Positions 15,240-37,802 of a DNA stretch of 64,000 bases are shown here, in pieces. The DNA is taken from positions 1 to 64,000 of the forward strand of contig LUQO01000039.1 in the NCBI GenBank assembly GCA_001627865.1, written 5' to 3'. The first letter of the stretch is position 1; each line of letters starts with the position of its first letter. The notes under the pieces were generated by a model. The model was not told where the DNA came from, ran no database searches, and saw only the letters and a list, made by a program, of their open reading frames with translations. A program made the translations under genes and the position numbers. The stretch is from SAR324 cluster bacterium REDSEA-S27_B3 (GTDB taxonomy: Bacteria; SAR324; NAC60-12).

Positions 15240-16388
15240 ATGTCTGCCCGCTATGATTTGCCCCTGATTGGAGCAACTTTATTTTTACTCTCATGGGGAA
15301 CAGTTATGATCTACAGTACAGGCGGGGTCTTTGCCGAACTTCAATACAATGACGGACATTACTTTTTATACCGACACCTTATTCATGTGCTGGCAGGACT
15401 TGCCGCAATGGGTGTAGCTTTGACTGTTGACTACAAAAAATGGAAGCAGTTATCAATATGGCTCAGGGCGGGAATGCTTGTTCTGCTGATTCTTGTTTTA
15501 ATTCCTGAAATAGGACACGAAGTAAAAGGAGGACGCCGCTGGCTGCGTTATGGTTCATTGAGTATCCAGCCTGCTGAATTACTGAAGGTTGTTTTGATTA
15601 TTTATGTGGCATCGTATCTGGAAAGGAAACAAGAACTGCTGGCTTCTTTCTTTCGTGGTTTAACGCCAAATTTTATAGTCACAAGCATTTTTCTTTTTCT
15701 GGTCCTGCTGCAACCGGATTTTGGCAATGTAATTTTGATGGCAACAACAGTCCTGCTTATGCTGTACGTAGGTGGCGGCCGCCCAGTACACATTGCCAGT
15801 AGTCTGATAGGTGTGGGAATAATTGCCGGACTATTGATTGCCTCGCATACCTATCGTGTCCAGCGAATGCTGGCTTTTTTGAATCCATGGGATGATCCGC
15901 AAAATTCAGGGTTCCAAATTATCCAATCATTCATCGCCCTTGGCACAGGAGGATGGGTTGGCAGAGGTCTTGGCGAAAGCCTTCAAAAAAGGCTTTTCCT
16001 GCCTGATGCCCACACTGATTTCATTTTCGCCATTATTGGAGAAGAACTTGGGTTTTTGTGGATATTTGTTTTGATCATCCTCTTTTCTGTTTTTATTTGG
16101 CGGGGCTACTGGATTGCGTGGAATGTTCGGGATACATTTGGTAAACACTTGTCTTTTGGCGCTACAACAATTTTAAGCCTTCAAATTATTCTGAATCTTT
16201 TCGTCGTAGTGGGACTGCTCCCTACAAAGGGCTTACCGCTTCCTTTTATAAGTTACGGTGGAACTTCTCTTGTAGTTTCAATGTTTTTGACCGGGCTCTT
16301 GCTTAATATAAGTGCGCGTCTCAGGCCTGTTGAAGAAACTCCCGAAAAAGGTTTAGCCACTGCCACTAAGCCCCCACCTAATGTGTAA
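15240..16388 (+). CDS. ftsW: Septal peptidoglycan glycosyltransferase FtsW (SEDS family)
   Basis: Ten-helix SEDS protein that polymerises lipid II at the division septum. Diagnostic stretches are GRRWLRYGSLSIQPAELLK (about residue 98), FQIIQSFIALGTGGWVGRGL, LPDAHTDFIFAIIGEELGF, and PTKGLPLPFISYGGTSLV near the C-terminus. These fit FtsW better than RodA, notably the SIQPAE and DAHTDFIFAIIGEE versions. I chose the ATG at 15240; an in-frame TTG at 15222 would add six residues. No other mur/fts genes are nearby, which is unusual because ftsW normally sits in the dcw cluster. Its last 8 bp overlap the ankyrin gene. Confidence 0.88.
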   Translation: MSARYDLPLIGATLFLLSWGTVMIYSTGGVFAELQYNDGHYFLYRHLIHVLAGLAAMGVALTVDYKKWKQLSIWLRAGMLVLLILVLIPEIGHEVKGGRRWLRYGSLSIQPAELLKVVLIIYVASYLERKQELLASFFRGLTPNFIVTSIFLFLVLLQPDFGNVILMATTVLLMLYVGGGRPVHIASSLIGVGIIAGLLIASHTYRVQRMLAFLNPWDDPQNSGFQIIQSFIALGTGGWVGRGLGESLQKRLFLPDAHTDFIFAIIGEELGFLWIFVLIILFSVFIWRGYWIAWNVRDTFGKHLSFGATTILSLQIILNLFVVVGLLPTKGLPLPFISYGGTSLVVSMFLTGLLLNISARLRPVEETPEKGLATATKPPPNV

Positions 16389-19300
16389 AGTTTTTTGTTA
16401 TAATTTATTCCGGATAAGATTCACAAATTGGTTCCGTCCTTCCTTTCAGAAACCATTTATCCGGATAATATTCCTGCTGGCATTCAGCTGCTTTTTTCTC
16501 TCCATTTTTTCCCCGGGTCAGTCCATACAGCTCTCAACCAAAATTGTTTTTGCACAATCTGCTGAGAAAGAAACAGATACCAAGAAAAATCATCGACTGG
16601 AAAATTTCTTAATCAGCACCAAAGATCGTGATGACTGGACTAGACTGATGCTGGCAATTTTGAAAAGTGTGCCCGCAGTAGAGCGTATCTTATCTCAGGA
16701 TGTAAGTGTAAATGTACGTGGAACAAATAGATTCCACGGTGTAACTCCTTTAATGTTTGCATCCAGAATCGGAGCTGAGGTGATTGTAGAATTACTGGTA
16801 AAAAAAGGTGCCCGGCTGAATGATACAGATACTTTAGGCAAAACAGCTTTGATTGAAGCAGCAAAAATGGGTTATTTAAATATCGTCAGGTTCTTACTTC
16901 AACAGGGAGCAAATCCAAACGCTGAGACTAATCAAAAATGGACCGCATTAATGTATGCATCACACAGCGGACATGATGAAGTCCTGGAATATTTATTAAT
17001 ACATGGTGCAAATGCTGATTCGCAAAATAAATTGGGTATGTCACCAGTTATGTATGCTTCCCAGAACGGTCATATTAAAATTGTGCAAAAATTAATTAAT
17101 CGTGGTGCAAATGTTAATTTGACCTCGCTCAATGGGTCAACAGCATTGATGTGGGCAATCAGTTCCGGTCACGACAATATTGCTGAACTGCTGTTGAAAT
17201 CTGATGCAAAACCCCACTCTTTCGAAAATGAGTTTAAAAGATCACCATTGCTTCTGGCTGCAAAGCATGGAAGAGAATCCATCGTTAATAGTTTGTTATC
17301 TTCTGGAGCAGATTTGAAAGCTGTTGACAAAGATGGAGCAAACGCTCTGATACTGGCTCTTGAAAACAGCCATTTTGACACTGCTCTACTTCTGATTGAA
17401 AAAGGTATCCAGGTTAATAATCCGGACAAGAAAAAAGTTACTCCTCTTATGATCTCTGCCTCTAAGGGAGATTTTGACCTGACCAACCTGCTGATTGACA
17501 AAGGGGCGGAAATTAATGCCAGGGATTCCGCTGGTAAAACCGCATTGATGTATGCCGCCGCAAAAGGAGACATAAACATTGTAAAATTGTTGCTTCGGGA
17601 ACAGAGCAGACTTGATTTTCGTGACTATTTAGGCAGGACGGCATGGATGTATGCAGTTGAAAACCAAAGCCATTCAATGGTGAAATTTCTCAGCAAAAAG
17701 GAAATTGATAACCATGAAAATCTGTTTTTCGCGGTTTCAAACGGACACCTTGAAGCAGTTAAAATCCTGCTCAAATTAGGTGCAAAATTAAATGTCCGTG
17801 ATAAGCAAGGTTGGACACCATTGATGCGGGCAGCAAATAATGGACATACAAAAATTATGGCCATTCTGATCAAAAACGGGGCAACAATTAACAGGTTTGA
17901 TGAAGTAAGCCCCACTAAGTCCGGCTGGACCCCACTGATGCTTGCTGCTGGAGGCGGTCATATCGAAATTGTGAAGATTCTCATATCAAAAGGCGCCGAT
18001 CTGACAGATAGAGACAAGGATAAATGGAGCGCATTGACATGGGCTTCCTTCATGGGCCATATCGATGTTGTAAATTATTTGACACAAAATGACGCGATTA
18101 TTGACCAGCGCGGTTCTGACGGAGCAACCCCCCTGATTTGGGCAGCATCTCAGGGGCATACAAATGTAGTTCAGGCATTATTAAGCCAAGGAGCAAAGAT
18201 AAATATGAAAGATATCAATGGCAAAACTGCTTTGGCACATGCAGCACTACAAGGGTATTTTTCTACAGCAAAGACACTGATTAAATATGGAGCGGACTTA
18301 GATCGCAATTTGCTCTATGCAGCACGTAGAGGATACAACAAAATGGTAATATTTCTACTGAACGAAAATGCTGAAATTGATTATATTTCTGCAAACAGAG
18401 AAACTTCTCTGGCTCTTGCGATTCAGGAAAAGCATTTGGAAACAGCAAGAATTCTACTTGATCACGGAGCAAATACTGCTGTACAGAATGCACAGGGACA
18501 AACACCTTTGATGTCAGCGGTTTTAACGGGTGAAGCTAAAATTGTAAAACTCCTTCTTCAACATCAAAAACAGGCAAGTCCGATATCTGAGTTGGAAACT
18601 ACAGATTTTATCGGAAATACCCCGTTAATGGTATCTGCAGATAAGGGGTTTTTAGACATAACAAAAATGCTGCTTGATCGAAAAGTAAAAGTTGAAACCA
18701 AGAACCGCTGGGATGAAACAGCTTTGATACTGGCTTCTTCCAAAGGTTTTCGTGAAATTGTCACACTGCTGATCAAGCAAGGAGCAAATATACGCTCCAG
18801 AGATGTTGCTGAAAAAACAGCCTTGTTAAGAGCCGCTCAAAATGGACACCTGTTAATTGTTGAGATGCTTCTTGCACTGGGCGCGAATCTTCATTTTAAT
18901 GCTTTTGACCTTGGAGGTGAAGGAGGAACTCCTCTAATACAGGCAGCAAGAAATGGCCATAAAGATGTTGTGCAGATACTTCTGAACGCAGGCGCAAATA
19001 TCAATACAACTGAACTTATGTTTCATCATTCAGCTTTGATGGTCGCAGCACTAAATGGACACGTGAAGACGGTGGATCTCCTGCTGAATGCAGGTGCTGA
19101 TCCCATGTTAAAAGACACCTCAAAGCGTTCAGCCCTATTACTTGCTGCTTCAAATAACCATTTTTTAGTTGTAAAACAGCTGAGGGATGCCGGCCAAAAT
19201 GGGAATCAAGTTGATTCCAACGGTAACGGCATTTGGCACTTAATGGCAATGAGTGATGTTGATAAAGAATCCGGACAAATCAAACTCGACTTGCAGCAAA

Positions 19301-19539
19301 AAGATCAGGACACTACTGCGATAATGAAAGAGCTGATCTCGCTTGGAATACTGCTGGACACCTTTAACAATGAAGGTAAAACAGCTTTGATCATTGCGGC
19401 TAAACAAGGAAAGGCAAAGATAGTAAAAAACCTGCTCGAATTGGGTGCCTCAACTGAAATACTTACGCCGGAAGGAGAGAGTGCTTTGACGTTAGCGGAA
19501 GCAGCCGGACACAATGAAGTTATAAAACTGCTGCGCTGA
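16381..19539 (+). CDS. Large exported ankyrin-repeat protein
   Basis: A 1052-residue protein built almost entirely of ankyrin repeats. Residues about 25-60 contain a hydrophobic helix after a basic N-terminus and then an alanine-rich AQSAEKE cleavage-like region, so it is probably secreted across or anchored in the inner membrane. From about residue 110 to the end, roughly 25-28 repeats of 33 residues can be followed by the recurrent G-TPLM-AA--GH--IV--LL--GA pattern; several copies are degenerate. It starts within the last codons of ftsW, with an 8-bp overlap. Ankyrin arrays bind other proteins; a periplasmic binding or scaffold role is the most that can be said. No enzymatic domain is visible. 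Confidence 0.85.
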   Translation: MCKVFCYNLFRIRFTNWFRPSFQKPFIRIIFLLAFSCFFLSIFSPGQSIQLSTKIVFAQSAEKETDTKKNHRLENFLISTKDRDDWTRLMLAILKSVPAVERILSQDVSVNVRGTNRFHGVTPLMFASRIGAEVIVELLVKKGARLNDTDTLGKTALIEAAKMGYLNIVRFLLQQGANPNAETNQKWTALMYASHSGHDEVLEYLLIHGANADSQNKLGMSPVMYASQNGHIKIVQKLINRGANVNLTSLNGSTALMWAISSGHDNIAELLLKSDAKPHSFENEFKRSPLLLAAKHGRESIVNSLLSSGADLKAVDKDGANALILALENSHFDTALLLIEKGIQVNNPDKKKVTPLMISASKGDFDLTNLLIDKGAEINARDSAGKTALMYAAAKGDINIVKLLLREQSRLDFRDYLGRTAWMYAVENQSHSMVKFLSKKEIDNHENLFFAVSNGHLEAVKILLKLGAKLNVRDKQGWTPLMRAANNGHTKIMAILIKNGATINRFDEVSPTKSGWTPLMLAAGGGHIEIVKILISKGADLTDRDKDKWSALTWASFMGHIDVVNYLTQNDAIIDQRGSDGATPLIWAASQGHTNVVQALLSQGAKINMKDINGKTALAHAALQGYFSTAKTLIKYGADLDRNLLYAARRGYNKMVIFLLNENAEIDYISANRETSLALAIQEKHLETARILLDHGANTAVQNAQGQTPLMSAVLTGEAKIVKLLLQHQKQASPISELETTDFIGNTPLMVSADKGFLDITKMLLDRKVKVETKNRWDETALILASSKGFREIVTLLIKQGANIRSRDVAEKTALLRAAQNGHLLIVEMLLALGANLHFNAFDLGGEGGTPLIQAARNGHKDVVQILLNAGANINTTELMFHHSALMVAALNGHVKTVDLLLNAGADPMLKDTSKRSALLLAASNNHFLVVKQLRDAGQNGNQVDSNGNGIWHLMAMSDVDKESGQIKLDLQQKDQDTTAIMKELISLGILLDTFNNEGKTALIIAAKQGKAKIVKNLLELGASTEILTPEGESALTLAEAAGHNEVIKLLR

Positions 19540-28497: not shown

Positions 28498-28609
28498 GAT
28501 ATTACTTCAAATAATATATTTGATGGTTTGGATAAAAAGTTTTCATTCTCGCGAAGCTTGTCATCGACCTGTGGTTCCAAACATTTCACCGAAAACGGAG
28601 GAACTGAGT

Positions 28610-28708
28610 ATGAGGGATGACTTTGGTATTACTCACCATTTATTAATTTGTGTTGATCATCGAAATGCCCACTATTGTAAACAGACTCTAGGTGTTCTCG
28701 TAAGGTGA
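28610..28708 (+). pseudogene. Short fragment resembling the N-terminus of a (2Fe-2S) ferredoxin-fold protein
   Basis: A 32-codon frame with a good GGAGGA ribosome-binding site 8 bp upstream. Its start, ITHHLLICVDHRNAHYCKQ, is reminiscent of thioredoxin-like ferredoxins that open with H-HLLVC...R...C. It then runs into the 3' end of the DUF1989 gene on the other strand and stops. If the resemblance is right, this is the stub of a gene cut by the island boundary. The match is from memory of the pattern only and is short. Confidence 0.25.
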
Positions 28709-29317
28709 GTCACTAATAATGACACGAATAGGTGTTGGTTTGCCGTTGTTACACGGGTTATTTATTTGTGGGCAGTTAGAGATGACTGCCAGTGAATCCA
28801 TTTCAGCACGTAAAGAAACGTAATCACCAGCTTTTGAATGTTCTGCAATAAATACATCCGGCACCAGTTGTTGGTTTGCATCAACAGGTACGCTACAGAA
28901 AAAATTGATATTGGGGACGATATCCCGACGATCCATTCCATGTTCGGCTAGTGCGGATAAAAAATTCTCCCGGCAACCCGGACAATTTGTAACGCCGTAT
29001 AGCAACTCGTTGCTGGGCGCACTGCAGCAGCCAGCGAGTGTGTCGTGTCCACCGCAGCTGTCTTGGACAATCGTAAAAAGCGGTCGAGCCTCATCCGAAT
29101 ACAACGTATGCCCTCGGGTAAGTTTGAGATTGCGTGAGGCTTTCAACGTGTTGGGAGCGTGGTAGCGTTCTTCAGGTCGATGGGCGTTGTAACAAAGAAA
29201 ATCAACGCCTTGCTGACCTTCAATATCGATAATTGTCAGGTATTGCCCATTCGATACAAAACCAGACCAGGGTGCACCGGCTGCGATAATCGTATCAACT
29301 GTGGTGTTTATATTCAT
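28688..29317 (-). CDS. DUF1989 / urea-amidolyase-associated protein (UAAP2-like)
   Basis: A 209-residue DUF1989 protein. The family is found with urea carboxylase and urea amidolyase, and relatives act on amine or urea derivatives; the reaction is not established. Visible conserved features are GQQGVDFLCYNAHRPEERY near residue 34, SDEARPLFTIVQDSCGGHDT near 75, a cysteine-rich CCSAP then NCPGCRENF, NFFCSVPVD, and the C-terminal ISNCPQINNPCNNGKPTPIR that is typical of the UAAP2 branch. No urea carboxylase, amidolyase or transporter is nearby, so it is an orphan. It could be the last cassette of the adjoining array or its chromosomal neighbour; no attC-like site follows it. Confidence 0.8.
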   Translation of the reverse strand: MNINTTVDTIIAAGAPWSGFVSNGQYLTIIDIEGQQGVDFLCYNAHRPEERYHAPNTLKASRNLKLTRGHTLYSDEARPLFTIVQDSCGGHDTLAGCCSAPSNELLYGVTNCPGCRENFLSALAEHGMDRRDIVPNINFFCSVPVDANQQLVPDVFIAEHSKAGDYVSLRAEMDSLAVISNCPQINNPCNNGKPTPIRVIISDSPYENT

Positions 29318-29510
29318 TATTTTACTTTCTCATAAATTGTAATAAACACTCGATATTGGACGAAGGGCGACACTCACTTTCTTACAACGTAAGTCCGCTT
29401 CAGCTGCAAAGCAGTCTATATTCAGCCTGGATGAATTTAAACTCTTCAAAACAGCCCCCGCAGTTAAAGTTTAATACCTCTTACTATCATATCAGTTGAT
29501 CACATTTCAT

Positions 29511-29595
29511 TATATCGCCTCACATCAACGGCAGAAGAAAGCAGTGCGAAGAGCGAGCGGCGCTTTTAACTGACCGCTGAATTCTTTTGTTAGGC
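29511..29595 (-). repeat. attC-like recombination site downstream of the PRiA4-ORF3 cassette
   Basis: On the minus strand the R'' box GCCTAAC (29595-29589) overlaps the TAA stop of the upstream gene. The L boxes TCAGCGGTCAG and CTGCCGTTGA can pair with one G-T wobble and one extrahelical T, the asymmetry that orients attC sites. The R' box reads GCGATATAA, where GCGTTA would be expected, so the crossover triplet is altered to GAT. Confidence 0.65.
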
Positions 29596-30186
29596 ATTTT
29601 GGTTGACATACTGTAACAACATTTTGTTCGTTTCACTTAGACTGAAATACTCCGGATCGAAATCTACTCCAAGCCAATCAAGCATTTCTTCATGCTCTGA
29701 ATGTGCAGGGTCTCTGATCACTTCCATTAAATTTTCATAACCCCATATACCTCCACAATCTTCAGGTGGGCAAGCCCTTTTCCCTTTTATGCACTTCACA
29801 AGCTCAGAAGATGTGTCAAAAGATAGTATTTTTTCAAGAATAACTTTGTGACTCCATCCATCACCAAAATCATACTCGTAAATCATGCTCCCTTTTTCTT
29901 CTTTCAATATATCTGACAATCTGAATTTTCTCTCGTCTTTTAATGTTGGACCAAAATCAGATCCAAATTCATCATCGTCTATGCCATAAAGAACTCCATG
30001 CTTTTCGAATTGATGTAAATGGCAGTTCAGCCATCCCATAGAATACTGGATAGCCTCATGAAATACATTCAATCTAATATTACTGTGAACAACCAATCTC
30101 CTCCATATAGGAGGTTTTGAATCTTCCAATGTAATTTTAATTTGATACAGAGATCTCAAATGTTTAGTTCCCATTGTTTTTCTCAT
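29590..30186 (-). CDS. Plasmid pRiA4b ORF-3-like protein
   Basis: Member of the PRiA4_ORF3 family, common on plasmids and in integron cassettes and of unknown function. The 198 residues show the family hallmarks: YQIKITLEDSKPPIWRRL near residue 14, LHQFEKHGVLYG near 57, LSDILKEEKGSMIYEYDFGD near 89, then GWSHKVILEK and RACPPEDCGGIWGYE near 142, and DWLGVDFDPEYFS near the end. It is a full-length copy. Its TAA stop lies within the R'' box of the following attC, and a GTTAGGC R' box (30244-30238) lies 52 bp before its start, so the gene is bounded exactly like a cassette. Confidence 0.88.
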   Translation of the reverse strand: MRKTMGTKHLRSLYQIKITLEDSKPPIWRRLVVHSNIRLNVFHEAIQYSMGWLNCHLHQFEKHGVLYGIDDDEFGSDFGPTLKDERKFRLSDILKEEKGSMIYEYDFGDGWSHKVILEKILSFDTSSELVKCIKGKRACPPEDCGGIWGYENLMEVIRDPAHSEHEEMLDWLGVDFDPEYFSLSETNKMLLQYVNQNA

Positions 30187-30237
30187 CTACTAATTCCAAT
30201 ATATTCTACTCGCAACAACTACGCCGATTTTTTTAAT

Positions 30238-30330
30238 GCCTAACGACTAAATGAGCGTATTTTTGACCGCAATACAGGACTTTGAAAAAGAGAGGAAGCA
30301 ACAACCTTTTGAGCAACTTAGTATTGAAAA
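30238..30330 (-). repeat. attC-like site downstream of the SEC-C cassette (degenerate 5' arm)
   Basis: The R' box on the minus strand is canonical, GTTAGGC (30244-30238), preceded by an L'-like CGCTCATTTAG. The matching outer arm is degenerate: ACTAAGTTGCTC near 30322-30311 pairs only partly and no good RYYYAAC box was found. Another core-like GTTAGAC lies at 30344-30338 and could be an alternative boundary. Confidence 0.5.
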
Positions 30331-30433
30331 AAGTCGGTCTAACAATAAGCTTCATTATTTTGTCGGCTTTCACGCACACCTCAAATTTTGCTTTTGAATA
30401 CAAATCGTTGCATGATTTTGTGGAATAAGTATT

Positions 30434-31246
30434 TCACGCTTTCTTTAAGCAACATTTTTTATATTTCTTTCCACTCCCACATGGACAGGGATCGTTTCTG
30501 CCCACTTTAGCCTCTGTACGAATAAAAGAAGTATTGGAGGCTTGCCTATCATTGTCAAACATCCATTTAAAATTTAGTGGAGGTGTTGAGCGACTCTCTC
30601 GAATTCCTAGTATAATTTCTGCATCTTCGATATCTCCTTGAATACTGTAATCTACACATTCATGTTGAAATGCTTTCCTAATCACACCAATCGAATCAAC
30701 GGCCTGGAGATCTACAAGATAACTGATTAAAAACCCATTTAATGTCTGATCGTTCTGATGATATTTTTCCAACTGTTTTGTTAATATTTCGACACATTGT
30801 TCTTTACTCTCTGGATATTGATTACCAATTTTTTCTATACTTTTAGCTACGCAGATCTTAGCAAAAAGTCCATATCCTGCTGCAAGATAAGAAGATAACG
30901 AGGAAATAGCCTGTGGGCCAATCATACTAAAAACTTCTGGAAATTCTTCTCCTATCCAATCATCATCGTCATCATCAATTCGATATAATTGCTCCAGTAA
31001 TGGCTCAATTGCTTCAACAGATTGTAGTTGGCCTAAAGTCCGCCATGCATGCATTGGAGTCAACACTTCCAAATTCTCTGAGTCTGCCCAGTATAAAGCT
31101 TCATCAGTAAACATTCTGATTAATTCAGGAATATGCTCTTGAGATAATCCCAACTCTAGATAATTTGGCCAATTTACCGTAGACTTACGACAATCACCTT
31201 GGTTTAATAATTTACTAACGGGAAGATTATAATTATATTCATCCAT
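30434..31246 (-). CDS. HEAT-like protein with C-terminal SEC-C zinc motif
   Basis: A 270-residue protein. Residues about 60-215 form helical pairs resembling HEAT-like repeats (for example [20 protein letters not shown] and [20 protein letters not shown]). The last 20 residues carry the SEC-C motif [16 protein letters not shown], a zinc knuckle also found at the end of SecA and in many uncharacterised proteins, often as a nucleic-acid or protein contact. The function is unknown. It has clear low-GC codon use and lies between two attC-like sites, so I place it as a cassette gene. Confidence 0.8.
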
Positions 31247-31387
31247 AAGCTCTTTTGTGTTTGTTAGAATTTAATTGAATGAATACGTATTTTTCTACCA
31301 TGAAATGAGGACAAATTAAAACAAATTATGTTCTTTGAATTTTACAATAGGCAGGAAAGAAATGCAGATTAGGCATAAGGAAAAAAA

Positions 31388-31454
31388 TATCGCCCAAGCT
31401 TTGCGGCGTGAAAGGAGTGCAGCGTAGTGAACGTCCGAACGAGCGCCTTGTTTT
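31388..31454 (-). repeat. Degenerate attC-like site downstream of the NmrA-like cassette
   Basis: On the minus strand the site opens with AAAACAAGGCGCTC, recalling TAACAAGGCGCTG-type R'' and L'' boxes, and ends with GCAAAGCTTGGGCGATAT, recalling the AGCTTGGGCGTTA end of many attC sites. The core bases TAAC and GTTA are changed to AAAC and GATA. The inner arms pair poorly. Confidence 0.45.
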
Positions 31455-31516
31455 GCGTATTTTGAATTAACATTTTCACCACCAAGAACAAGATCAACCT
31501 TGAATCGATCTTTCAA

Positions 31517-32245
31517 CTACAACTGTGTTCTGTTGTAGATCACAGGCATTTGCCCCTTCCACTTGTTCCATGTGTCATCATCAGTGATCAGATCAGCCAT
31601 GAAGTGGCCAACGTTGATTCGACTGGTCAAACCCGCATCAAAGATCGCACTTCTGGTCGGTGAAGAATGCACCTCGTACTCGGTGACTTCGTTTTCATTG
31701 ATTAGATTGTCCGGACGAACCACAGCCCACTCGATCACCTCGTCGTTCTGGCCAATCTTGATCCGTAGATAGTCCGCAGCCTTCTCATTGTCCACATGCG
31801 GAGGCAGCAGCAGACGAAGGAGTCCAATGACGGACTGCTGGGCAAACGAAATCCGCTCTTGGAGATCCCGGTTGCTGTTGCCAGCTGTGTTCATGAGCAC
31901 AAACTTTGATGTCTCATCGGAATTGTTTGCCTTGATGGCATGGCACAATCTTCGCGTGGCATCGGTCACAAGCATACGCGGGTGACCGTAAATACCCTTC
32001 ATGCTCATGTTGTGTCCCAGACAAGAAGCCACCGCGTCACATCCATTTACGTGTTGAGCCATCTCGGCGTTGCTGAGGTCCAGGACGCTCGTGTGGATCA
32101 CGGACAAGCTATCTTGACTTTTGATGACTTCCGGCAGCTTGTCGGGTGATCGCACAATCGCATTGACGTTTTGTCCACGACTGAGCAGTTGCTCTACGAG
32201 CAACTGTCCCGTTGCGCCACTTGCTCCGACTACAAGGGTAGTCAT
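31517..32245 (-). CDS. NAD(P)-binding NmrA/SDR-a-like protein
   Basis: A 242-residue Rossmann-fold protein of the atypical/extended SDR type. The dinucleotide motif is VVGASGATGQLLVEQLL (residues 4-20), followed by GQNVNAIVRSPDKLP, and later GCDAVASCLGHN and FVLMNTAGN. It ends with a VRPDNLINE segment typical of NmrA-like or NAD(P)H-binding proteins. There is no YxxxK catalytic pair in an obvious place, so it may sense rather than use the cofactor. The gene is visibly more GC-rich than its neighbours, consistent with separate acquisition. It lies between two attC-like sites. Confidence 0.82.
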   Translation of the reverse strand: MTTLVVGASGATGQLLVEQLLSRGQNVNAIVRSPDKLPEVIKSQDSLSVIHTSVLDLSNAEMAQHVNGCDAVASCLGHNMSMKGIYGHPRMLVTDATRRLCHAIKANNSDETSKFVLMNTAGNSNRDLQERISFAQQSVIGLLRLLLPPHVDNEKAADYLRIKIGQNDEVIEWAVVRPDNLINENEVTEYEVHSSPTRSAIFDAGLTSRINVGHFMADLITDDDTWNKWKGQMPVIYNRTQL

Positions 32246-32283
32246 CTTATTCTTCCCTTAGTAAAGCTCATGATATTAACTTA

Positions 32284-32346
32284 TAACGCCCAACTCAGCG
32301 GGCAATTTGAGCACAGCGAAAATTGATCTGCTGCAGTTGCTTGTTA
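32284..32346 (-). repeat. attC recombination site (best conserved in the array)
   Basis: The 63-bp minus-strand element runs from TAACAAGC to GGGCGTTA. R'' TAAC pairs with R' GTTA. L'' CAACTGCAGC pairs with L' GCTGAGTTG with a single extrahelical G, the standard polarity mark of attC. A third stem, CAATTT with AAATTG, closes the centre. This combination is very hard to get by chance. Confidence 0.85.
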
Positions 32347-32399
32347 TTGCCGTAGTTGGTTGCAACAATTTGTTTGGCAATTAATAGAATCTATTTATC

Positions 32400-32549
32400 C
32401 TAAGTTTCTGTTTGGTCTTTCAGGACACCAGAATACTCTAGGTTCTTCTTCAAGTCTTCAAACTCTATTTTTAAACTGCCTACTAGTCCCCAAGCAATAA
32501 TCGCAAAAGACATGCCGATCATTCCAAAAACAAATCCTACCGTTTCTAT
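32400..32549 (-). CDS. Tiny single-helix membrane protein in a cassette
   Basis: A frame between two attC sites, too short for routine calling. Reading from an ATA at 32549 gives 49 residues: one hydrophobic helix (VGFVFGMIGMSFAIIAWGL) followed by a charged amphipathic tail (KIEFEDLKKNLE). A GAGGAG ribosome-binding site sits 8-13 bp before the ATA, exactly where an ATG would be expected. The first in-frame ATG is at 32522 and would start inside the helix. I think the original start was ATG and is now ATA, either used inefficiently or lost. Similar one-helix proteins are common in integron cassettes. Confidence 0.5.
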   Translation of the reverse strand: METVGFVFGMIGMSFAIIAWGLVGSLKIEFEDLKKNLEYSGVLKDQTET

Positions 32550-32569
32550 TTTAACACTCCTCTCTACTA

Positions 32570-32651
32570 GCTATAACGCCAGCGATAACCTGTGCATTTG
32601 TAGTGAGCAACGTGAAAGAATAATGCGTATGAGTTTACAGCCTTGTTATGC
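32570..32651 (-). repeat. attC recombination site downstream of higA
   Basis: The minus-strand element begins GCATAACAAGGCTG and ends CGCTGGCGTTATAGC. R'' GCATAAC pairs with R' GTTATAGC over TAAC/GTTA, and an inner stem GCATT/AATGC is visible. The L boxes pair imperfectly. The higA TAA stop is embedded in the R'' box, as expected for a gene cassette. Confidence 0.72.
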
Positions 32652-32936
32652 ACTACCCGCCACCAATGGTTGAACATGATGCTTTGGTTTATGAAGAGAT
32701 AAGTCATGTGTTGCTTGCAGGTTGAGCCAAAATTCCGGCGACGTTTTAAATGCCTCTGAAAGAAGCCAGGCTGTATTCGGTGACACACCTCTCTTACCCC
32801 TGACAATTTCATTTACTCGTTGTACAGGAATGCCGATATGTGCCGCCACTGCTTTTTGGGATAAACCCAGCGGCTCAATAAACTCTTTAAGTAATATAAC
32901 CCCAGGATGGGTTGCTGCTCGATTGGTTGGAATCAT
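32646..32936 (-). CDS. higA: HigA-family antitoxin (XRE helix-turn-helix)
   Basis: Antitoxin that neutralises HigB and represses the operon. The start at 32936 gives 96 residues with the family beginning THPGVILLKEFIEPLGLSQ, a helix-turn-helix in QKAVAAHIGIPVQRVNEIV (about 28-46) and the WLLSEAFKTSPEFWLNLQ tail typical of HigA/VapI. It follows higB by 19 bp, giving the toxin-first order characteristic of higBA loci. A longer frame starts upstream inside higB but has no family resemblance there. Confidence 0.9.
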   Translation of the reverse strand: MIPTNRAATHPGVILLKEFIEPLGLSQKAVAAHIGIPVQRVNEIVRGKRGVSPNTAWLLSEAFKTSPEFWLNLQATHDLSLHKPKHHVQPLVAGSA

Positions 32937-32955
32937 TTGCTGTCTCCAGAATTTA

Positions 32956-33246
32956 CTAATGGTAATCAATAATTTGAACATTATGGGCACACGAGTCTTG
33001 CCACCTGAACACGATGCGCCATTGATTGTTGACACGAATACTATGAAATCCTGCAAAATCGCCTTTTAATGCTTCCAATCGATTGCCTGGAGGGGATTTC
33101 AAATCTTCCAGCGACTGGGCTGCATTGAGCACATCTAATTTGTGAAGGGCTGATTCTTTGATTTGATTAGGTATTTGCCTTACACGACTACTCGAAATAC
33201 CATGAAATAAATCCGATGTTGCACGATTCCGGAACGAAACTATCAT
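32956..33246 (-). CDS. higB: HigB-family toxin (RelE superfamily mRNase)
   Basis: Ribosome-dependent mRNA interferase of the HigB/RelE fold. The 96 residues contain FRNRATSDLFHGI, KLDVLNAAQSLEDLKSPPGN, LEALKGDFAGFHSIRVN and NQWRIVFRW, then a final VQIIDYH, all family signatures including the basic and His residues at the active site. It is the most upstream gene of the cassette array. TA modules in integron arrays are thought to stabilise the array by addiction; that is established for large chromosomal integrons and inferred here. Confidence 0.9.
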   Translation of the reverse strand: MIVSFRNRATSDLFHGISSSRVRQIPNQIKESALHKLDVLNAAQSLEDLKSPPGNRLEALKGDFAGFHSIRVNNQWRIVFRWQDSCAHNVQIIDYH

Positions 33247-33471
33247 AAACCAAAATTAACACATTCCCGGATTCCGTGCAAGTATGTTTTTCCAAGGCCT
33301 TTTACACTATATTGGCATTGCCATTTTTTACATGTGAATTTATCCAAAAGAAAATAGGTCTACATATTCTCTGTCTTGTATAGAATATACTTGGCAGGTT
33401 TTTCATTTTCTGGTGTGGTAGCCGTATGAACCAGAATTTTAGGTCTTCATCATATTAATATAATTATTTTA

Positions 33472-34344
33472 TTAAAATTCAAAATCCATCTGAGCTGGTG
33501 CATTTGTTTCAACTGCAGGTGGTTTTCGCATTTCATGCGGAACGGATGGCAAATCATCTGTTTGAAAACAATCGCTCCGGACAATCTCCTCAAGAAGTTT
33601 TGCCTGTTCCGGATAACCTTCCACTGTCGCCTCAAGCACCCAGAGCAATTCCAGCAATTCTGTGGTGAATTGACTGCTCCAGCGTTGCGGTCGAATATCG
33701 TCCAAAGGCGATGATTTTCTGCCCGCTCCTTGTTTCATGCGGTACTTTAGCCAGGATTGCACTACCTTAAGTCCGGAGACCTCAAATTCATAGACCGTCT
33801 GAGAAACCGGTCGAAACTCACCTTCTCCAACATGCAGAGTTTGGGTAGAATCATTATAACGAAATTCTTCTGGATATCCTTCTTCAACTCCGGGAACCGC
33901 CTTTTCGCATTTTGCGCCTCCGGAGGGAACTTGACCATGAGGATCACCCTCCGGAACCAAACGCTCACCGTAAGTGTGCAGCCAAAGCATGCGCGCACCA
34001 ATTTTTCTTGCTTGCTCAAATAATCCTGAGTCTTTGGTGAGCGGCACCCTCAATTCACGGGTTTCCAGTTCATTCTCGAACCTCGCTGTAAAATCCGGAT
34101 GCGCCAGCACGCCGTAAACATACGAAACAAATTCTTCCGGAGTTATTTTTCGTTGATACATATTGCCTAAAAGCTCAAACAGTCCCGGCAAAATGTTGGC
34201 TTCATCAGCGTTGGAAGTACGATAGAGGGGAACTGTGTCTTTTGCTCCACGTCCGGAAAAATAATCAAGATCTGGGATATTTTCGCTAGATGTAAAAGCT
34301 GGTCCATCTCCTAGAGGTTTGGTCAAAAGACTCGACAAATACAA
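33472..34344 (-). CDS. Type ISP-like restriction-modification enzyme, C-terminal fragment
   Basis: The 290-residue frame is the direct continuation, in the same reading frame, of the gene upstream, from which it is cut off by a single TGA at 34393-34395. Starting just after that stop, the sequence reads GDYLRPVIWNAHSEKQ and then LYLSSLLTKPLGDGPA, matching the region where this enzyme family passes from methyltransferase to target-recognition domain. IPDLDYFSGRGAKDTVPLYR is another family stretch, and YRMKQGAGRKSSPLDDIRP lies further on. A TTG at 34344 is the only plausible internal start. On its own this piece would carry target recognition but no catalytic motif. Confidence 0.75.
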   Translation of the reverse strand: MYLSSLLTKPLGDGPAFTSSENIPDLDYFSGRGAKDTVPLYRTSNADEANILPGLFELLGNMYQRKITPEEFVSYVYGVLAHPDFTARFENELETRELRVPLTKDSGLFEQARKIGARMLWLHTYGERLVPEGDPHGQVPSGGAKCEKAVPGVEEGYPEEFRYNDSTQTLHVGEGEFRPVSQTVYEFEVSGLKVVQSWLKYRMKQGAGRKSSPLDDIRPQRWSSQFTTELLELLWVLEATVEGYPEQAKLLEEIVRSDCFQTDDLPSVPHEMRKPPAVETNAPAQMDFEF

Positions 34345-34392
34345 CTGCTTTTCGCTGTGAGCGTTCCAAATTACCGGCCGTAAATAATCTCC

Positions 34393-36801
34393 TCAACGAG
34401 TATCAGCAAATATCCATTGACGGTCAAATGATCGATATGAATATCTCTCTATTTTTGGTGGGGATGTATTTTTTGACAATTCACTTAATGGTATTTGAGA
34501 AGTACCTTCAAGCGAGTCGCACCTCTTGTCTATCTTTCTGTCTCTTGTTTCCTTGAATAATTCTCTCATTTTTTCGGAGTTGAGCAACTTTTGCCAACGA
34601 ACCCCCAATGTTCCAGGATCATGACAAATCGGCCAAGTTCGCTTTAATTGTATCCCGGAATGCTGCCAGGGCATGAGATCAGTCAAAAGCGGCCAATCGA
34701 AAAAATCTCCAGTTCCAGCCGGACGAAAAGCAGCATGCCATTCCTGTGGACAATCTTCCCAATTTAGTTCTGCAAAATTTTCTACTTTGTCCAAGGTTCG
34801 CAGTTTTTCCTCTCTTGTACCTTCGATGCTGGTGTAATAAATAACAGCTGGCGATTCAGGATTTGTTTTTTTAGAACGGACTGCCACGGCGATTGCTACC
34901 GGAGTCTGGATGTCAAATATATTTTCGTCCTGTCGTGTGCCGCGACCTTCACCACCAAGGTCAAGAATCCAAATTTGATCACACAGACGGCGCATGTGCT
35001 CCCGCATTCCGCAAAAAGCAACACCATCCAAAAAACTGGATGCAGTGATAAAACTGACAATGCCTGATCCCTTAGAAGTTTGATGTTCAAAAACTTTCCA
35101 CAAGGCCCAGCGCCAGAAATAAACATACAGATTGTAAAGATTCTTGACATGAAGTCCATACCCAGCCTCAGCTGCCGGATCTATAAAATCATGTAAAATT
35201 GCAGGAAGATTACGTGAAGCTCCTTCTGAAACGGGAATGATTTGACGACCTTCACCATCATCTCCCCAGCGCACCCAACCGCCGGTATGCGCTCTGTTTT
35301 CTTCCGTGATTGCCTCGTGGCGTCCATAAGGAGGATTCCCCAGACAAACGATAACAGGAATATTGCTTTTTACATGCAACGCCCTTTTATGTTGCTCTGC
35401 AATTACCTGCAAAAATGCCGGTGGTACCGGCGGTTTAGTATGTGGGCTTTCCAGAGTGTCTGTCAGATGTATGTTTGCTCCTGCTGTTGGCAGCTCAGCT
35501 CCACGGTCACGCAAAGCACGACTGACACGCAATTCACTGACTGCGTATGGACCGGTCATCAGTTCAAAGCCATACAGATTTTCAGCCAGCGAAGTGGCTT
35601 GTCCGGCAACAGCTCCTTCACCCTGTTCAGTTTTGATCCTATCCAGAGCATGTTCGATCACGCCCAGCAAATAGGTGCCTGTACCAACCGCGGGATCAAG
35701 GGTAATTACTTCGGAATCCGCAAACCCCATTTGCTTGCCAAAGCGATTGACGAGCAAATCGTCAATCAAACGCACTTGACAGCGTACTACCTCCACAGGC
35801 GTGTAGTAGGCTCCGGCCTTCCTGCGTAATTGTGGATCATAGACCGCAAGAAAATCCTCGTAAAAATTCAACCATGGATCCTCCAATTCCTGAAAAGCAT
35901 TGGTCGGTACTGCCGAGATCACACGAAGAAGCAATTTGATTGAAGCTGCGATTTCCTGATTTTCTCCGGAATCTGTCAACACCAGCAATGCGCGGGAAAG
36001 CAGGCTGTGTTCATTTCTCAAAACATTTTCCGCGTTTTGAAAAGTGAGCGGATCGGCTCCTTCAGTGCGCCCGAGTAATAGCGCAAAAGTCACTGTTTGC
36101 GCGTAAGCATCCGCAAATTGTTCATCTTCTGCTTGGGGGAAGAGCAATTGCCTCCAGTCCTTAGCCAGTTGAATAAGAGGCGAATCTGGATTTTTCAAAG
36201 CGTCTTTTACATCCTCCCGCAACATCCGGCACAGCGGAGCAAGCATTGTAGCGAAACCTTTGAGATCAATCTTGCCCTTGCGGTCAAAAGGCAGAATCGG
36301 TTCCCACAGCAAGAAATCGTGCAACAATGATTCAACTTTGACAGTATCTTCAAGTGTAACTGCGTTTTGACCATCGACAGCCACATCCCCTGTTAGTCGA
36401 ACAACACTGCCTACCAATTCACCGTTACGGTATAAGGCCCATTCATTGCCGTCAGAATAGAGAATATTTGGTATAACTTTGAAGCGGTTGAATTGTTCAC
36501 GGTCATGACCGGTGAAACGTGAGGCGAGAGCGCCTTTTCCGGGAGCCTTGAGTTCAGCGTATCCTGCCAGAATCTGGTTACGATTCAGGGCAAAGTCAGG
36601 AATCCCCATATTTTCAGAAAGGTGAGACTCCCCAACACAAACTATTTCCCAATTCAGAGCCCTCGCAAAATCCCCCATCAAGTTCGCAAAAGGAGTGATC
36701 AATTGTTCTTCCGGTTCACCCTGTGTAGGCTGTGACATTTTTTCTGTCACCTTTTCGGCAAAGTCTCTCAATGCATTGAAGATCAGGTTGCCTTGGCTCA
36801 T
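34393..36801 (-). CDS. Type ISP-like DNA methyltransferase/restriction protein, N-terminal part
   Basis: An adenine-N6 methyltransferase of the type IIG/ISP kind, 802 residues before an in-frame TGA. A possible nuclease-like N-terminal domain (about 25-150) has TPFANLM and GIPDFALN then GYAELKAPGKG, which looks like a PD-(D/E)xK site. The helical connector leads to RKAGAYYTPVEVVRCQV and the SAM motif DPAVGTGTYLL (about 360-385), and the catalytic NPPY is in CLGNPPYGRHEAI (about 485). Compared with classic type ISP enzymes it lacks the large helicase. Full length with the downstream fragment would be 1109 residues. It overlaps the vapC stop by 4 bp. Confidence 0.85.
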   Translation of the reverse strand: MSQGNLIFNALRDFAEKVTEKMSQPTQGEPEEQLITPFANLMGDFARALNWEIVCVGESHLSENMGIPDFALNRNQILAGYAELKAPGKGALASRFTGHDREQFNRFKVIPNILYSDGNEWALYRNGELVGSVVRLTGDVAVDGQNAVTLEDTVKVESLLHDFLLWEPILPFDRKGKIDLKGFATMLAPLCRMLREDVKDALKNPDSPLIQLAKDWRQLLFPQAEDEQFADAYAQTVTFALLLGRTEGADPLTFQNAENVLRNEHSLLSRALLVLTDSGENQEIAASIKLLLRVISAVPTNAFQELEDPWLNFYEDFLAVYDPQLRRKAGAYYTPVEVVRCQVRLIDDLLVNRFGKQMGFADSEVITLDPAVGTGTYLLGVIEHALDRIKTEQGEGAVAGQATSLAENLYGFELMTGPYAVSELRVSRALRDRGAELPTAGANIHLTDTLESPHTKPPVPPAFLQVIAEQHKRALHVKSNIPVIVCLGNPPYGRHEAITEENRAHTGGWVRWGDDGEGRQIIPVSEGASRNLPAILHDFIDPAAEAGYGLHVKNLYNLYVYFWRWALWKVFEHQTSKGSGIVSFITASSFLDGVAFCGMREHMRRLCDQIWILDLGGEGRGTRQDENIFDIQTPVAIAVAVRSKKTNPESPAVIYYTSIEGTREEKLRTLDKVENFAELNWEDCPQEWHAAFRPAGTGDFFDWPLLTDLMPWQHSGIQLKRTWPICHDPGTLGVRWQKLLNSEKMRELFKETRDRKIDKRCDSLEGTSQIPLSELSKNTSPPKIERYSYRSFDRQWIFADTR

Positions 36802-37229
36802 GCTTTTTTCACAAATTCAAAAGGGTTGTATAGTTCTACACCTGTATCAACATAATCATTTATATTTCTTGTAACCAAAACTAATCCATAGCTAAGCGCT
36901 GTAGCCGCAATTTGTTTGTCCAAAGCGTTTTCATGATGAGGCACTCTAAGACGTCCCCATATCTGAGACTCTGTTTCTGTAAAATCAAGAATGTGTTCGT
37001 CATAATTATTGACAATGCCCTCTAACCATTCTTCCAGTTTGTCTGCTTGCTGATGATCTCCACGATACCGAATAAGATCAACACCACGTCTTAGCTCCCC
37101 TAAAGTTATCACGCTGATAAACAAGTTTGCTTCATGCAAGGTAGCATTTTTAAAGAACTTCTTTACTCCGAAGTTTGCTTTTCCTTTTTTTCTCTGTTCA
37201 CTGATGACATTAGTGTCAATCAAATACAT
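36798..37229 (-). CDS. PIN-domain toxin (VapC/FitB family)
   Basis: Ribonuclease toxin of the PIN fold. From the ATG at 37229 the 143 residues begin MYLIDTNVISE, with the first catalytic Asp, then have a conserved Glu in ISVITLGELRRGV, and later the acidic pair region HHENALDKQIAATAL with the VTRNINDYVDTGVELYNPF end that marks VapC/FitB toxins. The start lies 14 bp inside the antitoxin gene, and the stop overlaps the start of the restriction-modification gene by 4 bp. The three genes should therefore be translated as one unit. An upstream in-frame start (37268) is inside the antitoxin and not preferred. Confidence 0.88.
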   Translation of the reverse strand: MYLIDTNVISEQRKKGKANFGVKKFFKNATLHEANLFISVITLGELRRGVDLIRYRGDHQQADKLEEWLEGIVNNYDEHILDFTETESQIWGRLRVPHHENALDKQIAATALSYGLVLVTRNINDYVDTGVELYNPFEFVKKA

Positions 37230-37449
37230 GGCGGGGTTGTTCGTTTTGAACACGTTCAAAGTCTTCATCGCGACCTATATTGGGCATATCGCTTAATACC
37301 TCAGCAAAACTTTTTTTCCTGGGTTTCAACAACACATTTTCCAAAATCATGCGATGTTCAGCTTCCGCACTCACACCATGTCGCCCTGCCCGACTTTTTA
37401 GAGCACTGACAATTTCTTCATCTAAATTCCTCACAATCAAATTTGCCAT
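37216..37449 (-). CDS. Ribbon-helix-helix antitoxin (FitA/VapB-like)
   Basis: A 77-residue antitoxin. The N-terminal 40 residues, MANLIVRNLDEEIVSALK then RAGRHGVSAEAEHRMIL, fit the FitA-like Arc/MetJ ribbon-helix-helix DNA-binding domain, and the remainder is the flexible toxin-binding tail. It is the first gene of the TA-restriction operon. An inverted repeat lies about 50 bp upstream of its start and may be the operator. Confidence 0.85.
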   Translation of the reverse strand: MANLIVRNLDEEIVSALKSRAGRHGVSAEAEHRMILENVLLKPRKKSFAEVLSDMPNIGRDEDFERVQNEQPRHVFD

Positions 37450-37500
37450 ATACTATTTCCGTTTACAGATTAGATTGAATATTCAAAATCATGATATCAT

Positions 37501-37531
37501 TGCTATCTGTCTAATGCAATCATTGATAGCA
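37501..37531. promoter_or_regulatory. Inverted repeat upstream of the FitA/VapB-like antitoxin
   Basis: TGCTATC at 37501-37507 and GATAGCA at 37525-37531 form a perfect 7-bp inverted repeat with a 17-bp spacer. A second partly palindromic ATGATATCAT lies at 37491-37500. Ribbon-helix-helix antitoxins bind such spaced repeats in their own promoters, so this is a reasonable autoregulatory operator. Confidence 0.35.
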
Positions 37532-37566
37532 TTTATTGCATGTTTTACTCGATGCAACAAGCTCGT

Positions 37567-37791
37567 TCAATAAACTTCATTATGACTTCTAATACTCACC
37601 AATAGAATCTGTTTTTCTTTGATTTCCAATTCAAGAGTGATCCTGTATTTCAGTGAAATGGCGACAGAATGAAGGCCTTTGAGGGTGCCACGCAAGGCAT
37701 GAAGGCGTAAAGAAGGGTGATAAGGATTTGCCCGTAACAACTCCAGGGTTTTCTGATAACGCTGAAGTAATTCCGGATGTTTTTTAAGAAC
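37567..37791 (-). pseudogene. 5'-truncated RelE/YafQ-type toxin fragment
   Basis: Frame of 74 codons with no start codon at its beginning; it is immediately preceded by stop codons TAG TAG. It reads LKKHPELLQRYQ, then HPSLRLHALRGTLKGLHS, VAISLKYRITLELE and IRSHNEVY at the end, the pattern of RelE/ParE-superfamily toxins related to YafQ. About 15-20 N-terminal residues and any antitoxin are missing. The break coincides with the end of cobN (stop at 37803), only about 10 bp away, suggesting that an insertion or deletion at the island's right edge removed the start. Confidence 0.65.
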
Positions 37792-37802
37792 CTACTATTT
37801 AT

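Follow-up and report, generated by a model that had tools for sequence, protein, structure and literature searches.

Here, we describe a window of 64,000 nucleotides from SAR324 cluster bacterium REDSEA-S27_B3 (contig LUQO01000039.1, positions 1 to 64,000 of the forward strand) that carries, at 29.5-33.3 kb on the minus strand, what is very probably a cluster of attC sites lacking an integron integrase (CALIN), i.e., five co-oriented gene cassettes, an attC after each, and no integrase in cis. The array holds six open reading frames (ORFs) in five cassettes, each closed by its own attC; from 33246 down to 29510, these encode HigB, HigA, a short ORF product, a NAD(P)-binding protein, a HEAT/SEC-C protein, and a PRiA4_ORF3 protein. 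An earlier note on this DNA had described five minus-strand genes with attC-like separators; genes and sites are indeed present, but the genes number six. Cassette borders and lengths were set at the G|TT (or G|AT) of each R' box, which yields the following units:

32577-33246, minus strand: cassette 1, HigB toxin (33246-32956) and HigA antitoxin (32936-32646), closed by attC_A; upstream start undefined.
32287-32576, minus strand: cassette 2 (290 bp), ORF of about 51 amino acids (aa) with its stop at 32400 and one likely membrane helix (judged by eye).
31391-32286, minus strand: cassette 3 (896 bp), NAD(P)-binding (NmrA-like) protein of 242 aa (32245-31517), closed by attC_C.
30244-31390, minus strand: cassette 4 (1147 bp), protein of 270 aa (31246-30434) with HEAT-like repeats and a C-terminal SEC-C zinc motif, closed by attC_D.
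29516-30243, minus strand: cassette 5 (728 bp), PRiA4_ORF3-family protein of 198 aa (30186-29590), closed by attC_E.

HigB matched Pfam HigB-like_toxin (4.6e-21), and HigA matched Pfam HTH_3 and NCBIfam antidote_HigA (3.1e-25). The proteins of cassettes 3, 4, and 5 were assigned to Pfam NAD_binding_10 (2.7e-25), SEC-C (2.7e-10), and PRiA4_ORF3 (1.2e-67), respectively, and matches of the cassette 4 protein in the PDB were the SEC-C motif of SecA/YchJ and alphaRep. Family searches with the short ORF of cassette 2 (32560-32400) gave no match; it has no ATG at the expected place, and its start is uncertain (GTG or ATA after GAGAGGAG). The view that all of this cargo is of unknown benefit does not extend to HigBA, which is not a gene of unknown type. 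Similarly, gene stops had been reported as embedded in R'' boxes, which is true of HigA (GCATAAC) and PRiA4 (GCCTAAC) and of none of the other four of the six genes.

The sites that close the cassettes have the following composition:

32651-32571, minus strand: attC_A (81 nt), R'' GCATAAC and R' GTTATAG, AAC/GTT core intact in both R boxes.
32349-32281, minus strand: attC_B (69 nt), R'' CAATAAC and R' GTTATAA, L'' CAACT[G]CAGC with L' GCTGAGTTG; the best preserved site.
31456-31385, minus strand: attC_C (72 nt), R'' GCAAAAC and R' GATATTT, with A in place of T directly after the cut.
30368-30238, minus strand: attC_D (131 nt), R'' degraded (GCCGAC), R' GTTAGGC intact, L'' AATGA[A]GC with L' GCTCATT.
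29595-29510, minus strand: attC_E (86 nt), R'' GCCTAAC intact, R' GATATAA, L'' AT[T]CAGCGG[T]CAG with L' CTGCCGTTGAT.

In a window-wide scan, L'' and L' formed a stem in all five sites and L'' carried its extrahelical base where this is customary, with the L-stem score lowest in attC_A (7.1) and highest in attC_B (17.1). Pairing L boxes and an extrahelical base had previously been noticed at 32284-32346 and 29511-29595, which correspond to attC_B and attC_E; the description of these two was accurate, but the sites are five and not two. AAC and GTT cores are both present in attC_A and attC_B, whose R boxes pair over 4-5 positions. The full 7-bp consensus (R'' RYYYAAC, R' GTTRRRY) is found at both boxes in none of the five, and attC_E (29516-29510) and attC_C (31391-31385) share an R' box with GAT for GTT.

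Statistical support for the sites was obtained in two ways. First, both strands of the 64 kb were scanned with a scheme that adds a stem score, allowing one or two extrahelical bases, to R-box matrices. Training of these matrices used 23 attCs, none from the window; the sources were pTBH13, one plasmid each of Aliivibrio and of a cyanobacterium, aadA2, a Pseudoalteromonas site, and two relatives of the phylum. Scores were 36.5 for attC_B, 32.2 for attC_D, 31.8 for attC_E, 31.2 for attC_A, and 24.6 for attC_C. Four sites thus exceed 30, all on the minus strand and within 3.2 kb, and the next best match elsewhere in the 64 kb reaches 26.8. Among 15.4 Mb simulated from window dinucleotides as a first-order Markov chain, than which a real genomic background could be somewhat heavier, seven matches reached 30, two reached 31.8, and none reached 32.2. 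The score of attC_C alone is weak, as 3.8 such matches are expected per window; attC_C is, however, homologous to known attCs. Second, a covariance model was built from 29 attCs, none from the window, with loops cut to 35 + 35 nt before alignment; full-length alignment by MAFFT misaligned the 3' boxes. A covariance-model search for attCs had been proposed in the earlier note, with 29.3-32.7 kb as the critical interval, and the present model recovered attC_B (34.1 bits, E 1e-5), attC_A (21.1 bits, E 0.013), and attC_C (17.2 bits, E 0.11) there and nothing else in the window up to an E of 5. Throughout the 3.3-Mb genome, it matched only at the array and at two sites on another contig (C45), both of which belonged to its training set. 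Rfam at gathering thresholds gave no match in the window. Three sites are hence clustered within 1.3 kb by the covariance model and five within 3.2 kb by the combined score. We consider attC_A, attC_B, and attC_C safe attCs; attC_D and attC_E are likely attCs in a degraded state.

Sites and cassettes of the array have relatives elsewhere, as revealed by homology searches in 72,556 plasmids and in a collection of 84,980 species genomes. The attC_A stretch is 80% identical over 77 bp to DNA of Pseudoalteromonas CF6-2 and also aligns with attCs of plasmid pTBH13, and the attC_C stretch is 78% identical over 83 bp to an attC of the same plasmid. attC_C, the inner stem of which is damaged, aligns with five attCs, including those of relatives G027 and G017. 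Among the species genomes, the closest relative of the PRiA4 gene is found in a gammaproteobacterial metagenome-assembled genome (L079), to which cassette 5 has 81% DNA identity over 659 bp. This similarity begins exactly at CGTTAGGC, the R' box of attC_D, and stops at GCCTAA in the R'' box of attC_E. Such bounds at R' and R'' agree with the prediction for an integron cassette, which moves as a unit from the TT of one R' box to the G of the next; among the five cassettes, they were seen for cassette 5. An acidobacterial PRiA4 gene (L094) is likewise flanked by two strong attCs. With a cassette common to different phyla and borders exact at the recombination boxes, the PRiA4_ORF3 family of unknown function represents genuine cassette cargo. 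A distant relative of the cassette 3 protein (22% identity) is encoded between two attCs in genome G038 (L155). The order of the cassette genes was searched for in other loci and not found, also not in a locus without attCs, which the earlier note had named as refuting evidence, and phage and E. coli genomes contained nothing resembling the array. A plasmid search with an IntI matched class 1 integrons almost exclusively.

No integrase gene accompanies the array. The TIGR02249 search of the genome gave no match on the array contig (C33), and tblastn with six IntIs detected nothing above noise in the window or in the remaining 7.2 kb of the contig. The search for intI throughout the genome, as suggested in the earlier note, retrieved a single recognisable gene, a remnant on contig C45 that is frameshifted (split over two frames), lacks its C-terminal part, and is located beside two attCs of its own:

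L006 11461-14056 (G000:C45 69460-72055): second integron remnant, broken intI and two attC-closed cassettes in the right orientation.

These two cassettes, BrnT/BrnA-like and cation-efflux-like (named by eye from sequence), each have a strong attC. A complete integron is recognised by a functional intI and an attI in cis, and the array contig has no intI. The locus instead combines at least two clustered attCs with the absence of a nearby integron-integrase gene, as is characteristic of a CALIN.

Some observations weigh against this assignment. An R box is damaged in three of the five sites, namely R' in attC_C and attC_E (GAT for GTT) and R'' in attC_D (GCCGAC). The covariance model did not detect attC_D even with filters off, and found attC_E with filters off only (10.8 bits, E 0.56) and with another choice of R'. 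Furthermore, the genome assembly is 88% complete, and an intact intI is possible in the missing part. The proposal of an integrase-less attC cluster is nevertheless borne out by covariance-model attCs at 29.3-32.7 kb on a contig without intI. The array is a real and ordinary CALIN, an already known kind of integron leftover of which it provides a new example in a little-studied phylum.

CALINs are frequent, with 2961 counted in complete genomes and almost six attCs each on average (PMC9024848). As defined for IntegronFinder, they comprise at least two close attCs with co-oriented small genes of mixed function and no nearby intI; the present array, with five attCs, differs from this in nothing categorical, although three of the five show visible damage. 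Plasmid pTBH13 of Thiolapillus brandeum (L041) shares attCs of the attC_C type (78%), a HigBA cassette, mostly co-oriented cassettes, and the absence of an annotated integrase with the array, but it is a plasmid with at least nine well-preserved attCs and other cargo. These attCs (L041 6395-12882) make pTBH13 a plasmid-borne CALIN. The complete integron of relative G028 (L019), from the same bacterial family, also has attC-bounded cassettes in one orientation, but its intact IntI is encoded 1 kb from the first attC and its attCs are mostly longer (119-131 nt). In Xanthomonas, sedentary integrons have decayed through inactivation of intI, arrays were left behind, and CALINs also occur at other loci (PMC12444791). 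Inactivated intI and leftover arrays are common to Xanthomonas and the genome studied here, whereas Xanthomonas belongs to another phylum and has its integron platform at ilvD.

An IntI that is complete or nearly so and passes the family cut-off is encoded in ten of 52 genomes of the phylum, including three of the same genus. Within the order, the covariance model found attCs in ten of 41 genomes, among which the same-genus G017 and G018 have arrays. In G016, G017, and G018, an intact intI adjoins a radical-SAM (spore-photoproduct-lyase-like) gene. Beside the radical-SAM gene of G011 and G025 are a C-terminal intI remnant and one orthologous attC (L182 4106-4010; L183 6090-6186), and the corresponding position in the genome studied here holds nothing of an integron. 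Intact intI and remnants in relatives, and the empty position here, show that integrons are native to this group and often decay. The value of the array is as a case in this series, as one phylum and even one genus shows an intact integron, a broken intI with attCs, and a bare array.

How the array formed and how its genes are expressed can be modelled as follows. The cassettes would have been placed by an IntI, either supplied in trans or encoded here and later lost, with cleavage at G|TT in the folded bottom strand of attC. In this model, the array would now be largely fixed cargo, because the only recognisable intI of the genome is broken and the R boxes of attC_C, attC_D, and attC_E are damaged; judged from sequence, only attC_A and attC_B look recombination-competent, given an IntI. 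All cassette genes are co-directional with cobN and arsC-cobT-cobS, and, for want of a Pc promoter, their expression would depend on read-through of the cob operon or on cassette promoters such as that of HigBA. A promoter scan returned signals at chance level.

The array is part of a larger insert between cobN and arsC:

28498-37802, minus strand: foreign insert with a DUF1989 gene, the cassette array, a split type IIG restriction-modification (RM) gene, VapBC, and a RelE-like remnant.

The two genes are 9305 bp apart in the window versus 87-304 bp in five of the six same-genus genomes that have both, the sixth (G017) having 2.0 kb between them. The earlier claim of an insertion into the B12 locus is therefore sound, as cobN and arsC are adjacent in relatives, yet the insert of 9.3 kb carries more than the array. 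Annotations within it include PADLOC REase_MTase_IIG and NCBIfam VapC. The type IIG RM gene (window 33472-36801) consists of two ORFs, with the split at about 34344 to 34393, and is probably broken. The RelE-like toxin remnant (window 37560-37760) directly follows cobN, as it does in relative G011 (L109). With this remnant in G011 and the 2.0-kb gap in G017, insertions may have occurred repeatedly between cobN and arsC. At the borders of the insert, we found no convincing direct or inverted repeats, no target duplication, and no insertion machinery. The DUF1989 gene was considered as a sixth cassette and rejected, as no attC follows it.

Accepting the array as a CALIN, we weighed several accounts of its origin. 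It could be the remnant of a complete integron at this site whose intI-attI end, on the side of HigBA, was deleted or was replaced with the RM region, an account that we find credible while falling somewhat short of probable. The attCs with intact cores (attC_A and attC_B) are at the HigBA end and the damaged attC_C to attC_E at the opposite one, an arrangement to be expected of a young, attI-proximal HigBA end, and decay is also seen elsewhere in the genus, where G011 and G025 retain C-terminal intI remnants beside an attC. However, the contig has no trace of intI, and both these remnants and the intact intI genes of the genus (G016, G017, G018) adjoin the radical-SAM gene and not the cob cluster.

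A rather doubtful but still possible origin is that an IntI encoded elsewhere, e.g., the now-broken one on C45, inserted cassettes off target into attG-type sites, with the GAT R' boxes of attC_C and attC_E being halves of the target sites. Off-target insertion is among the proposed routes to CALINs (PMC8618304), and the consensus reported for secondary sites of IntI insertion is GWTMW (PMC4618277), which both odd boxes, reading GATAT, fit. That the genome has another integron remnant, apart from the array, is also consistent with this scenario. On the other hand, GATAT is one substitution away from GTTAT, the R' start of attC_A and attC_B, the inner-stem damage of attC_C speaks for decay, and no empty target site was found, as relatives are without the surrounding insert. 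A more novel, though unlikely, reading takes the GAT boxes in attC_C and attC_E as scars that arose naturally when IntI inserted cassettes into attG-like sites, neither attC nor attI; the CALIN would then go back to off-target seeding by an integrase that has since died at another locus of the genome. If so, this type of scar could flag off-target insertions in other genomes and separate seeding from decay.

Arrival of the array as a block, together with the RM and VapBC genes on another mobile element, is in our view improbable. It would explain why all of these are in one 9.3-kb insert at a single site, and plasmid-borne arrays of such kind exist, pTBH13 being an example, but the borders showed neither a transposase or phage integrase nor terminal repeats. 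That the locus is no integron product at all and an ordinary gene cluster with chance hairpins, as the weakness of attC_D and attC_E in the covariance model might suggest, is hardly conceivable in view of the independent covariance-model matches, five co-oriented sites after genes, homology to known attCs, and cassette-shaped homology breaking at R boxes, and is refuted by the break of PRiA4 cassette homology at the R' box.

Elsewhere in the window, an ORF of 1052 aa (16381-19539) consists of repeated ankyrin-like units, as recognised by eye.

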